The notes under the pieces are model-generated. The model searched no databases and was not told where the DNA came from. It saw only the letters and a list, made by a program, of their open reading frames with translations. 64,000 bases of DNA, taken from IMG/VR virus record IMGVR_UViG_3300044994_000320, positions 23,212 through 87,211 of that record; one strand, written 5' to 3'. Positions within the stretch are counted from its first letter, which is position 1; each line of letters opens with the position of its first letter. Source of the DNA: a virus. Both the position numbers and the translations under genes were made by a program. Below, piece by piece: positions 26,744 through 54,161 of this stretch.

Positions 26744-28645
26744 ATGCCAATTTCGACTTTGAACCAAAGTCCCGGCGTGCTTTTAGAAGAAGTTCCTGCA
26801 GATGCGGTGGCGCCAGTCCTCGTATCTACCGGTGTTGGCGCAATGCTTTGCGTCACGGAAAAGGGGCCAATCGAAGCACGACAAGTAACCTCTTTCGGAG
26901 AATGGAAGAGGCTTTATGGCAGACAACTTCAAGATTTGGATTCAAACGCCAATCTTAAGTATTCTGCAAACCAGCAAGCCAAGAATTTTTTTCGCAACGG
27001 CGGAAGAGTTCTATGGACTAAGCGCGTCGTTCACTATACAGACATTACCGACGCAGCAACGATTACGGCTAAAAAATCCGCGGTTATTCTGCGCGACGGC
27101 GATGTAGCAGTTCCGGCTACAATCGGCGCCTCTGTTCAAAGCGTAGGCACTGGAACAGCGCACGTATCCAGTGGCACTTACACAGGGTTGTTTGATGCAA
27201 CTTATGTGATTACGTGCTTGACCGGCGGTTTGCTTAACGGTAGCGCAGCTACATTTCAAGTTTCGGCTATTGGGGGCGATGAACACGGAATTATTAGTTC
27301 TACAGTTACCCCAACAACCGGTGTTGCTTTTGCTGTCGGCACTAAAGGTGTCATGCTTACACTTACAAATGCTGGATCAGTATCGGTCGGTGACACTTTC
27401 AAGATTTCGGTAACCGCAAAAGGTAACCCAGTCCTTAAGGTAGAAGCTCGCTGGCATGGAGCATACGCTAACACAGACTTTGTTAACAACAAAGGCTTAG
27501 CTGTCTCTGTTTCCGCAGGCGCTATCAGTGGAACATACAAAATTACCGAATGGGTCGATGGGGTAGTTGGACGAACTTTCGACAATTTGCAAAATCAGCG
27601 CACTGACACTCTCGGAAATTTGCGCGCGGATTTCGCCGAGCTCGAAATAAACTCGCCAAGTGGGTCAGAAGAAATTCGAGTATCAGTTTTAGGGCCCACA
27701 AACCCTGTAACAGGTTTTGCAACCCCTATTCCGCTTGTTTCCGGTGACGACGGTCTCGTAGGACTCTCAAATTCAGATTATACTGGTGATTCTGATGCTG
27801 AGACAGGTATTCACGGATATAACACTGTGAAAGAAATCCTCGTTTTAGGATGCCCAGATAAAGAAAACGATATTACAGTCGTAAATGAACTTATCGCATG
27901 GGTCGAACGGTATCACCCCCGTAGCCACCTTGTGCACTCACTTCCTTACGACATCGGTTTTGATGGCGCGAAGGTGTATATGCCTATAACTTTGGCAAAG
28001 GACTCTTCTCGTTACTCCGCGTACTACCCATGGATTAAGACCGATGGAAACTGGGTTTCGCCTACTATGGCTATCGCTGGCCTATACATGGTCAACGACG
28101 CATTACCGCAGCGTGGTGTATGGTCATCCCCAGCAGGGACAGATTTGTCGTTTACTGGCGTAGAAGACATCGAAGTACGTATCGGCGATACTAAAGGCGG
28201 AGTGCTCAACGAAAACCGAGTAAATGTTTTGCGAATTATGCCAAATGCTGGACTCGTTATTTGGGGTAGTCGTACAGGTACGGTTTCACAACAAAAGTAC
28301 TTCCGGTTCATCGGCTCACGACGTAACACTAACTATGTCGCTATGTCTCTTGAAAAGTCGTCCGCTTTCGCTGCCCACCACGATACCGGCCCGGATTTGT
28401 GGAGAAAATTGACAAATACGTTCGAGTCTTTTTTATTCCGGCATTGGCGAGCAGGCGGTTTTAGAGGGCAGAGCAAGTCAGAAGCGTACTTCGTAAAAGT
28501 CGATGGTGAGATTAACCCACCGTCTAACGAAGAACAAGGCATTACGCGCAGCCAGGTCGGTATTTGGAATAAGAAAACAAACGAGTTCCTGATTATCGAA
28601 CTTTCGCAACTCGGTGGTGAAACCTCCGTAAGCGAAGGCGTGTAA
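26744..28645 (+). CDS. Contractile tail sheath protein
   Basis: The start matches the sheath family: SPGVLLEEVPADAV, then GVGAMLCVTEKGP. The conserved C-terminal part has GVWSSPAGTDLSFTG, VNVLRIMPNAGLVIWGSRT, and the terminal region that wraps neighbouring subunits. The middle carries an extra beta domain (about residues 110-235) not needed for contraction and shared with the 22890-23957 protein. At 633 residues it is long for the family because of this insertion. A strong AGGAGG precedes it, and the tube gene follows after 12 bases. Confidence 0.95.
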   Translation: MPISTLNQSPGVLLEEVPADAVAPVLVSTGVGAMLCVTEKGPIEARQVTSFGEWKRLYGRQLQDLDSNANLKYSANQQAKNFFRNGGRVLWTKRVVHYTDITDAATITAKKSAVILRDGDVAVPATIGASVQSVGTGTAHVSSGTYTGLFDATYVITCLTGGLLNGSAATFQVSAIGGDEHGIISSTVTPTTGVAFAVGTKGVMLTLTNAGSVSVGDTFKISVTAKGNPVLKVEARWHGAYANTDFVNNKGLAVSVSAGAISGTYKITEWVDGVVGRTFDNLQNQRTDTLGNLRADFAELEINSPSGSEEIRVSVLGPTNPVTGFATPIPLVSGDDGLVGLSNSDYTGDSDAETGIHGYNTVKEILVLGCPDKENDITVVNELIAWVERYHPRSHLVHSLPYDIGFDGAKVYMPITLAKDSSRYSAYYPWIKTDGNWVSPTMAIAGLYMVNDALPQRGVWSSPAGTDLSFTGVEDIEVRIGDTKGGVLNENRVNVLRIMPNAGLVIWGSRTGTVSQQKYFRFIGSRRNTNYVAMSLEKSSAFAAHHDTGPDLWRKLTNTFESFLFRHWRAGGFRGQSKSEAYFVKVDGEINPPSNEEQGITRSQVGIWNKKTNEFLIIELSQLGGETSVSEGV

Positions 28646-49612: not shown

Positions 49613-51397
49613 ATGCTAAACATAGAAGAATTGAAACGGGGAGACGCGTCGTTTTACGACACTATTCTCCCGCTACTTCCCTCTCTGTACGTTTCGTTAG
49701 ACTTAGAGTGGGAAATCGAAACAAAGTTTCCAGAGCTTTTTTCGATCGCTTATCGTGTGCCTGAAACGAATCCTGTAGAATGGCGTTCAAGATCTTTCAT
49801 CTATTGCGATGACACCATGCATATTCTTGAAGCCATTCTGCAAAAAAGTCGCGGGTTGGTTTTTCATAACGCCAAAGCGGATTTGGATGTTTTAGAGTGT
49901 AATGGGCATGAAATCGAGTATTTACGAGGGAAAGTCCATGACACGCTTCTTATGGCCCATTTGGTTGATGAGGTTCGCCGAAAAGGGCTAAAAGTGCGTG
50001 CAGAAGATGTCGGTATGACACTAAAAGAACTCGATGAAGTAGATCGAGGCAACATAGAAGAGTACATGAAGTACAACGAAAACGACGCTTTGGCTACGAT
50101 AAAGCTTTTCTACAAATACGGCGCCACGTTAAAAAGAGACGACCTACTTATTGCCTACGAACTTGAACGCATGTGCGTGTATCCGACAATGCGTATGGAG
50201 CAACAGGGCCTATACATCGACCGAGCTAAAACGCTTGAGCTTGAGCGCCTAGCCAATGAACGTATAAAGTTTATTGAAGGAGAGCTCTTCAAAGCTAACG
50301 GCGGCCCATTTAACCCAGCCTCGTCTAAGCAACTGGCCGTTTTTCTTTTTAAGACACTGGGGTTAGCTCAAGATAAGCGTTGGATAACGGACGCTGGTAA
50401 CGTGTCCACTGCGGCTAATGTTTTGGAAGAACTTTATGAGCGTGAGAAAAAAGGGCCTCACGGAGAGATTCTTACGTTGTTAATGGAGTACAGAAAACTT
50501 CGCAAAATTGTGTCTACCTATGTTGGTGAAGCTATTTTGAAGCATGTAGGCGCAGACGGGTTTATTCACGCCAGTTTTAGTCAAGTTGGTACCGTTACAG
50601 GCAGATTCAGCTGTTCCGATCCAAATTTACAGAATCAGCCTAAAGACCCCCTTTTCAAAGATGACCCCGATACGCTTATTCGTAAGCAGTATGTGGCGCC
50701 ACCCGGTAAAAAGATGGTTGTTATCGACTATTCTCAGATCGAACTTCGTGTTATGGCTTACCTCTCTCAAGATAAGCGTATGCTAGAGGTCTATGCCAAT
50801 GACGAAGACCTACACGAGGATATGGCTAAGTTCGCAGGAGTTGAGCGCGATTTTGCTAAGACTCTAAACTTCGGTATGGCCTATGGTCTTGTCGAAAAGA
50901 CTTTTGCGGCAAACACAGGTCTTCCGCTTAAAAAAGTACAAGAAATGTATGCTAAACACGAAGAGCGGTTCCCTGGCTTGTACAAGATGTTCGCAAATAT
51001 CCGGCAGTTTACTCGTGAAACGGGCTATACTATTACGATGAGTGGTCGTCGTCGGCGTATTCCCGAGATATACAGCGATAACTTTGTTGAAAAGGCTCAC
51101 GCTCAACGGCAGGCAGTAAACACTACGATTCAAGGCAGCGCGGGGGATTTAATAAAACTCGCGATGATTAACCTTTACGAAAACACCGATCACAAAGAAG
51201 TTCAAATGGCTGCTCAGATTCATGATGAGCTTCTGTTGTACATCCCCGATGTCGGTAAAGACGAAGAGTACCTCGAAAAGATACAGCACCTTTTCGAGAC
51301 TGCTATGGTCGTAAAGTCTATACGTTTCAAAGCTGAAGGAAAAATCTGCGCGACGTGGGCAGACAAAAACCTTAAAGCACCAAAAGTCGAAGTGTAA
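49613..51397 (+). CDS. Family A DNA polymerase with 3'-5' exonuclease
   Basis: The N-terminal DnaQ-type exonuclease shows Exo I (D30-x-E32), Exo II (HNAKADLD) and Exo III (YNENDA). The polymerase domain has GRFSCSDPNLQNQP, motif A DYSQIELR, motif B RDFAKTLNFGMAYG and motif C QIHDELL. At 594 residues it lacks the 5'-3' exonuclease domain of bacterial Pol I. It is the replicative polymerase of the phage. The upstream gap has the candidate element at 49568 and a good AAAGGAG. Confidence 0.95.
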   Translation: MLNIEELKRGDASFYDTILPLLPSLYVSLDLEWEIETKFPELFSIAYRVPETNPVEWRSRSFIYCDDTMHILEAILQKSRGLVFHNAKADLDVLECNGHEIEYLRGKVHDTLLMAHLVDEVRRKGLKVRAEDVGMTLKELDEVDRGNIEEYMKYNENDALATIKLFYKYGATLKRDDLLIAYELERMCVYPTMRMEQQGLYIDRAKTLELERLANERIKFIEGELFKANGGPFNPASSKQLAVFLFKTLGLAQDKRWITDAGNVSTAANVLEELYEREKKGPHGEILTLLMEYRKLRKIVSTYVGEAILKHVGADGFIHASFSQVGTVTGRFSCSDPNLQNQPKDPLFKDDPDTLIRKQYVAPPGKKMVVIDYSQIELRVMAYLSQDKRMLEVYANDEDLHEDMAKFAGVERDFAKTLNFGMAYGLVEKTFAANTGLPLKKVQEMYAKHEERFPGLYKMFANIRQFTRETGYTITMSGRRRRIPEIYSDNFVEKAHAQRQAVNTTIQGSAGDLIKLAMINLYENTDHKEVQMAAQIHDELLLYIPDVGKDEEYLEKIQHLFETAMVVKSIRFKAEGKICATWADKNLKAPKVEV

Positions 51398-51403
51398 AAA
51401 AGC

Positions 51404-51450
51404 GCCGAAACTCGGTTGGGAGTTTTTAGGGTTCGATTCCCTATTCGGCA
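51404..51450 (+). ncRNA. tRNA-like element without an anticodon arm (47 nt)
   Basis: All 47 bases fall into a three-arm fold. A six-pair acceptor stem forms from GCCGAA (51404-51409) and TTCGGC (51444-51449). The D-type arm is ACTC-GGTTGG-GAGT (51410-51423), followed by a TTT linker. The T arm is TAGGG-TTCGATT-CCCTA (51427-51443) with a canonical seven-base T loop. An unpaired A at 51450 stands at the discriminator position. No CCA is encoded and no anticodon arm exists. The same bases allow a competing terminator-like hairpin AAACTC/GAGTTT (51408-51425) with a U-run. It may be a tRNA remnant, a tRNA mimic, or a terminator with coincidental likeness. Confidence 0.5.
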
Positions 51451-51452
51451 AA

Positions 51453-51485
51453 AGCTCGTATAAAAGTCAAAGACTTAAAAGAGCT
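51453..51485 (+). promoter_or_regulatory. Nested hairpin in the leader of the SSB gene
   Basis: AGCTC (51453-51457) pairs with GAGCT (51481-51485), and inside it AAGTC (51464-51468) pairs with GACTT (51472-51476) around an AAA loop. It stands between the tRNA-like element and the AGGAGG of the SSB gene. It may be an RNA leader element that affects SSB expression. The stems are short, so confidence is limited. Confidence 0.35.
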
Positions 51486-51508
51486 AAATAATAAGTAGGA
51501 GGTACTCG

Positions 51509-52237
51509 ATGAGTACAGAAGTTACAAGTCTCGATTCAATTTTTGATAAGACTGAGTCGATTCAAGATAAAGCCAAGGATGTCGATGAGCGAAGAAAGAA
51601 CTCCGGAAAAGGCGTTCCGTGGCTATTTTTAGAGGAAGGTGATGAGGCCCTTGTGCGATTTTTGCACCGTGACCCCGTTCTTTACTATTCCCATCGAGTT
51701 TGGGACCCGGACAAAAGCGAAGGCAAAGGCGGATATGTCAATCTTACCTGTACAAAAGCTGCCGGTCGTTGCCCTTTGTGCGAAGTAGGCGAAAAACGTA
51801 GCTATAAAGGTGCGTACCTTGTTTTGCATATAAACAACACCGGTGATGGCGACAAGGTTGTTCCGATGGTCAAGATGCTGATTCGTGGTATTAACGACTT
51901 GCGTATGCTTGAAGCTAAATCGAAAAAGTTCGATCTTACAAAAGTAAACCTCGAAGTGTCGCGTGTCGGTTCCAGCACAGATTCGCGGCTTATACTCGAT
52001 CGCAGTGAGGATACTACAATGCCTGAGTTTGACCGTACCCCAATCGACGGTGCGTCAAACGAAGAGCAGTATGTAGCGTTCCTCAAAAAGAAGCTGAAGC
52101 CAGACATGAAGAAAATGGAGGCCATAGCCGGCACAAAGCGCGGCTCTTCAAAAGGCTCGAACAGCCAGGAATCCGACAAAAAATCGCAAACAAACACCAG
52201 TACGGAATCCGATGATGACGATGACATTCCATTTTAA
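51509..52237 (+). CDS. Single-stranded DNA-binding protein
   Basis: This 242-residue protein has a central OB-type region with a zinc site (C81, C88, C91 in CTKAAGRCPLC), as in T4 gp32-like proteins. A Ser/Lys-rich linker leads to a C-terminal acidic tip DDDDDIPF, the conserved end through which SSBs recruit replication and repair partners. It lies between polymerase and RecA genes. The combination of a gp32-like zinc core and a bacterial-type tip is notable. Confidence 0.88.
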   Translation: MSTEVTSLDSIFDKTESIQDKAKDVDERRKNSGKGVPWLFLEEGDEALVRFLHRDPVLYYSHRVWDPDKSEGKGGYVNLTCTKAAGRCPLCEVGEKRSYKGAYLVLHINNTGDGDKVVPMVKMLIRGINDLRMLEAKSKKFDLTKVNLEVSRVGSSTDSRLILDRSEDTTMPEFDRTPIDGASNEEQYVAFLKKKLKPDMKKMEAIAGTKRGSSKGSNSQESDKKSQTNTSTESDDDDDIPF

Positions 52238-53669: not shown

Positions 53670-54161
53670 ATGCGAAAGCAAAAGATCGCAGGTAAAGATG
53701 TGACCTTTTATTCGTTAAGCCAATTTGCGCACCTTTTAGGTAAAAAGCCCCTTACTTTGCGTCGTTGGATAAAAGCCGGCATTATGCCGCCTGCTTTTTT
53801 TGTGCGCAATTTTCACAGTAACTTGGCAAAAGAAACAAAGCAAGCGTACCTTTTTAGCGAGCAAGAAGTAAACGCTTTCCTCGCTATTAAAGATAAATGG
53901 CGGCTGAGCCATTATCGAAATGTTCCTAAAGGGTTCAAAGAAGAGTTGCAAAAAGTCTGGGACATCATTCGTCAGGAAATAGTCGAAGGAAAACAACGCC
54001 CCATAGAAGACGAAGTCGGCTTTATAGTTCGTTTCAATAACAGGCAAGAAGCGGAGCTAACGCTACAAAAAATTTTGAAAAAGAATTACACCATAAACAT
54101 GAGTATCACGGAAATTTCTGCTATGCTTGTGCGTGAGTTGATTGCTATAAGGCATTCTTAG
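53670..54161 (+). CDS. MerR/excisionase-like DNA-binding protein (163 aa)
   Basis: Residues 14-40 read as a winged HTH of the MerR/Xis type: SLSQFAHLLGKKPLTLRRWI, then AGIMPPA. A further segment with YLFSEQEVNAF matches the wing of that family. The C-terminal ~80 residues are helical. It is immediately after the nuclease gene. It may be a regulator or a DNA-bending factor. No integrase is present to make it an excisionase. Confidence 0.6.
   Translation: MRKQKIAGKDVTFYSLSQFAHLLGKKPLTLRRWIKAGIMPPAFFVRNFHSNLAKETKQAYLFSEQEVNAFLAIKDKWRLSHYRNVPKGFKEELQKVWDIIRQEIVEGKQRPIEDEVGFIVRFNNRQEAELTLQKILKKNYTINMSITEISAMLVRELIAIRHS

Follow-up and report, generated by a model that had tools for sequence, protein, structure and literature searches.

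A tRNA-like element without an anticodon arm between two replication genes of an uncultured phage, and similar elements in other phages

Introduction

The DNA analysed here (the window) is a stretch of 64,000 nucleotides, corresponding to bases 23212-87211 of the 87,211-bp virus record IMGVR_UViG_3300044994_000320 of IMG/VR, which carries portal, terminase, capsid, tail and replication genes. Between a gene for a family A DNA polymerase and a gene of an ssDNA-binding protein family, both read in the same direction, lies a sequence of 47 nucleotides, GCCGAAACTCGGTTGGGAGTTTTTAGGGTTCGATTCCCTATTCGGCA. An initial annotation, made from the letters alone, described it as a tRNA-like element lacking an anticodon arm, and proposed a decayed tRNA, an att-like tRNA remnant, a mimic recognised by tRNA enzymes or a novel short RNA, with a terminator as the plain alternative. 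We examined whether this structure is real, whether it recurs in other phages and which of these readings fits best. The observation proved to be correct, whereas the interpretation was supported in part, the tRNA mimic being the option that fits best, because the same kind of element recurs between co-directional genes in many unrelated phages with compensating base changes.

Results and Discussion

Structure of the element

The features of the locus are listed in Table 1.

Table 1. Features of the polymerase/ssDNA-binding protein intergenic region (window coordinates)
Coordinates	Strand	Feature	Basis
49613-51397	+	Family A DNA polymerase gene with 3'-5' exonuclease domain; stop codon ends 6 nt before the element	Pfam DNA_pol_A, E 6.5e-93; list of open reading frames
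51404-51450	+	Mini tRNA-like element without anticodon arm (whole)	Sequence, folding, descriptor and covariance model
51404-51409	+	Acceptor 5' strand GCCGAA, pairing with 51444-51449; same 6 bp as the tRNA-Leu acceptor	Sequence; cellular tRNA-Leu matches
51410-51423	+	D arm: stem ACTC (51410-51413)/GAGT (51420-51423), loop GGTTGG (51414-51419); the AAACTC/GAGTTT hairpin weighed as a terminator in the initial annotation	Sequence and folding; no terminator match
51424-51426	+	Linker TTT	Sequence
51427-51443	+	T arm: stem TAGGG (51427-51431)/CCCTA (51439-51443), loop TTCGATT (51432-51438)	Sequence and folding; only exact GGTTCGANTCC in the window
51444-51450	+	Acceptor 3' strand TTCGGC (51444-51449) and discriminator-like A (51450)	Sequence
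51453-51485	+	Hairpin between element and ribosome site, corresponding in position to the hairpin that follows the element in other phages	Folding; comparison with other phages
51497-51502	+	AGGAGG ribosome-binding site of the next gene	Sequence
51509-52237	+	Gene of the ssDNA-binding protein family, its ATG 58 nt behind the element	PHROG 14578, E 8e-9; PHROG 9721, E 2.5e-5

The minimum-energy fold is this three-armed structure, at -17.8 kcal/mol (z -2.7), with 6 of 200 shuffled sequences as good; the element was also folded in its wider context. Acceptor and T stem stack over 11 bp, one less than the 12 of tRNA, and no CCA is encoded. A loose descriptor (acceptor, D stem with GG, canonical T arm) found only this site in the window. 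Shuffled windows gave 18 hits in 200, most of them longer than this one and about 3 of similar short length, which makes chance unlikely but does not exclude it on its own. No tRNA was called by ARAGORN in the window or in the rest of the record, and, the anticodon arm being absent, the element does not qualify as a functional tRNA gene.

No Rfam family reached its threshold. The sub-threshold tRNA-like matches were mascRNA/menRNA (RF01684), with 17.1 bits against a gathering score of 42.5, and tRNA-Sec, with 15.7 against 47. mascRNA is likewise a compact tRNA mimic linked to a long transcript, with acceptor, small D arm and T arm, and is processed by RNase P and RNase Z, but it keeps a small third arm and is animal. 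The tRNA-like domain of tmRNA also has acceptor, T arm and D loop without a normal anticodon arm, but we found no tag reading frame, no long helix and no tmRNA call. The tRNA-like domain of the bacterial Y RNA YrlA (PMC7790460) is another tRNA mimic, which needs a Ro60-family partner and a Ro-binding stem; no TROVE gene (PF05731) was found in the record, which may be incomplete.

An att remnant is unlikely. No tyrosine integrase (PF00589) was found in the record, a search that did not cover serine integrases, and the element is closed on both its 5' and 3' sides, not just a tRNA 3' end. A small protein at 53670-54161 of the window nevertheless shows weak similarity to an excisionase/regulator family. 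The terminator alternative gets no support. A six-base inverted repeat with a run of five T is present, but a scan for G+C-rich hairpins followed by a U run found no terminator, the T arm and acceptor lie behind the U run, and what varies together in other phages (see below) is the T stem and not a U-tailed hairpin. We consider a weak terminator or a chance resemblance very unlikely.

Relation to tRNA-Leu and search for close relatives

The acceptor GCCGAA/TTCGGC and the final A are those of tRNA-Leu. A search for AGGGTTCGATTCCCTnnTTCGGCA gave 119 cellular matches, most of them visibly tRNA-Leu, all of which have two bases at the T-acceptor junction where the element has one. They came from too many lineages (Chloroflexi, Planctomycetes, Flavobacteriales and others) for a host to be named. 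A decayed tRNA may thus be the evolutionary origin of the element. That it is now a functionless tRNA-Leu gene with a deleted anticodon arm is possible for this single copy but seems improbable, since all three stems are intact, its D arm does not look like that of tRNA-Leu, and simple decay does not explain the recurrence, compensating changes and modular repeats of the class described below.

No close relative of this phage was found in the collections searched. DNA similarity searches with the polymerase-ssDNA-binding protein region gave no phage match, searches with polymerase or RecA peptides gave no close relative, and a capsid alignment found only relatives at 40% identity or less; of 20 such records only two had any hit with the covariance model described below. 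Exact-core patterns gave no match, and in six loci bearing polymerase homologues no element was seen in the 250 nt behind the gene. The compensating base changes reported below are therefore those of other phages only.

Similar elements in other phages

We next searched for the architecture rather than the sequence. A pattern with the same acceptor found an element at 2606-2651 of a viral contig (L104), AGCCGAA-CTATGGAGTGTAG-AA-GTAGG-TTCGAGT-CCTGC-TTCGGCT, starting in the stop codon of an open reading frame. The same contig bears a twister-sister ribozyme at 957-1025 (46.6 bits). A descriptor scan of loci retrieved through weak T-arm similarity found further elements in Lactococcus phage bIL66 and Streptococcus phage D4446, and homologues exist in several Streptococcus phages and many lactococcal 936 phages. 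Similar mini-elements also occur in many IMG/VR contigs. The working definition of the class is an acceptor stem of 5-8 bp closing on a T arm with a TTCRANN loop, with 9-22 nt containing GG between them, to which the window element conforms. Its D arm is longer than the usual AATGGTTAAT loop of the class.

A last scan with the pattern TGGTN{3,12}GGGTTCGATTCCC gave at least 127 sites in at least 120 loci. Among these 127 sites, 28 have a 6-8 bp acceptor at short distance, whereas swapping 3' flanks among sites gave 3.2 on average and at most 9 in 300 trials. Several share the loop AATGGTTAAT or close variants. As the pattern was chosen after earlier examples had been seen and the site counts are lower bounds, these numbers show that the class is real, not how common it is.

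A covariance model (R1) was then built from five IMG/VR elements, not including that of the window. It found the Streptococcus, 936 and window elements, and in the whole 87-kb record the window element was the only hit, with 24.8 bits and an E-value of 3.8e-4, although E-values from this short calibration are rough. Two bacterial genomes gave nothing at E 0.01, and 1 of 118 bacterial genomes of one phylum had a hit at E 0.001 (E 7.7e-5). The model does therefore not simply respond to ordinary tRNAs, and the class is mainly viral in this sample.

In lactococcal phage sk1, a stretch annotated as putative terminator for middle transcripts (record positions 27885-27911, 1162-1188 of the locus analysed) overlaps the T arm TAGGG-TTCGATT-CCCTA of such an element. 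At 781-995 of the same locus, sk1 also carries an unannotated tRNA-Trp(CCA) and a degenerate tRNA next to two mini elements, although a paper on other 936 phages reports no tRNAs in its genomes. The presence of complete, degenerate and mini units side by side suggests that tRNA genes can decay in phages.

Compensating changes and gene context

In five Streptococcus phages all 17 pairs of acceptor, T stem and following hairpin are kept, and three T-stem pairs and one hairpin pair change on both sides. A second contig (L336) holds six copies within 2.6 kb (62-2670), each followed by a hairpin, a ribosome site (AAGGGAGAA or close) and ATG. Three T-stem pairs change on both sides in nine cells, and none of 500 shuffles reached that count or the covariation score. 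A third contig (G028, 23500-27186, minus strand) holds five matches. The four full ones have different acceptors that each pair (CCCAG/CTGGG, CCCTT/AAGGG, GCCGTT/AACGGC and CCCCTA/TAGGGG), the T stems also differ but pair, and all five are followed by a hairpin of the type TTGACAC..GTGTCAA, GAGGAGG and a start codon, one copy having an extra hairpin before it. The copies within contigs were found by the model, which favours pairing, whereas the Streptococcus alignment was made without it. MAFFT alignments of mixed elements put the acceptors out of register and were not used for pair counts. Taken together, these changes indicate that RNA structure is selected in these phages.

The elements typically start just after a stop codon and precede the ribosome site of the next gene, often with a small hairpin between, as in the window. 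Of 29 elements checked, 14 lie outside open reading frames within -12 to 60 nt of a co-directional stop codon, against 622 of 19,028 random positions (3.3%); the caller used is crude and misses several obvious cases, for example in L336. The neighbouring genes are varied: helicase and primase (locus L259), an ATPase (locus L261), an anti-restriction protein (L336), the Erf annealing protein (Streptococcus phages) and polymerase and ssDNA-binding protein (window).

This context bears on whether the element acts in the leader of the downstream gene, controlling its translation or stability without being cut, for example as a binding site for the phage ssDNA-binding protein or a host tRNA-binding protein. 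The elements usually precede a gene and are followed by hairpin and ribosome site, the window copy precedes an ssDNA-binding protein gene, and in the Streptococcus phages a promoter-like sequence lies upstream of the element, so that there it sits in a 5' leader and need not split an operon. A leader function is thus possible, but we consider it unlikely. No common product of the downstream genes was found; where known they are unrelated (primase, ATPase, anti-restriction protein, small membrane ORF), so that there is no single autoregulated product, and the elements also hug the upstream stop codon. It is less likely still that an excised mini-tRNA acts in trans as a decoy or small RNA, occupying host tRNA enzymes or tRNA-attacking defence nucleases. 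The element keeps the parts such enzymes recognise and lacks an anticodon, and a competitive-inhibitor role has been suggested for the YrlA tRNA-like domain (PMC7790460). However, the intergenic placement next to ribosome sites and the up to six copies per contig, each before another gene, point to a role in cis.

A possible role in mRNA punctuation

What is constant is the place in the operon and the tRNA features used by end-processing enzymes, and what is lost is the decoding arm. We therefore favour operon punctuation as the most likely mechanism. In this view, the element would be transcribed in the intercistronic part of a replication-gene mRNA and fold into a minimal tRNA mimic, the acceptor stem stacked on the T arm, with a GG-bearing D loop that could dock on the T loop. 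Host RNase P would cut at its 5' side, just after the polymerase stop codon, and a tRNA 3'-end nuclease (RNase Z or equivalent) would cut behind A51450. The polymerase mRNA would thereby get a 3' end, and the ssDNA-binding protein mRNA a new 5' end shielded by the following hairpin.

There is precedent for this proposal. RNase P cleaves hairpins made only of acceptor stem, T stem and T loop (PMC11143913). Plant mitochondrial t-elements, which are tRNA-like sequences at gene borders, are cut by RNase P and RNase Z, thereby defining mRNA ends, and are CCA-tailed but not charged (PMC11658184). The t-elements are tRNA-homologous and organellar, whereas the phage elements lack the anticodon arm and recur as modules of element, hairpin and ribosome site, and their cleavage is only inferred by analogy. 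Against the proposal, the window element stacks 11 bp instead of 12 and lacks CCA, which bacterial RNase P prefers. The structure, the recurring class, the gene context and the compensating changes in other phages rest on computation, whereas transcription, docking of the D and T loops, recognition and cleavage by the enzymes and any effect on expression are inferred from sequence alone. We are confident that this is a real structured element and one member of a recurrent phage class, but hold the processing role to be only about as likely as not.

Conclusions

The 47-nt sequence behind the polymerase gene belongs to a class of phage elements that is absent from Rfam, and the elements tested are not called by ARAGORN. 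A literature search found no report of anticodon-less tRNA mimics between phage genes, which is weak evidence of novelty as most subscription journals lay outside its scope. The class is unannotated in cultivated laboratory phages too, such as sk1 and Streptococcus phage P738, where it can be tested directly. In its widest form, which we put forward only tentatively, phages of many unrelated lineages would carry a dedicated, modular mRNA-punctuation system, in which an anticodon-less tRNA mimic, a protective hairpin and a ribosome site between operon genes let host tRNA-processing enzymes cut the phage message into separately tuned mRNAs and release mini-tRNAs. If the punctuation role is true, phages use the host's most essential RNA enzymes, RNase P and tRNA 3'-end nucleases, to cut their operons, a bacterial-virus counterpart of mitochondrial tRNA punctuation, and the elements would provide natural minimal substrates for asking what tRNA enzymes need to see.
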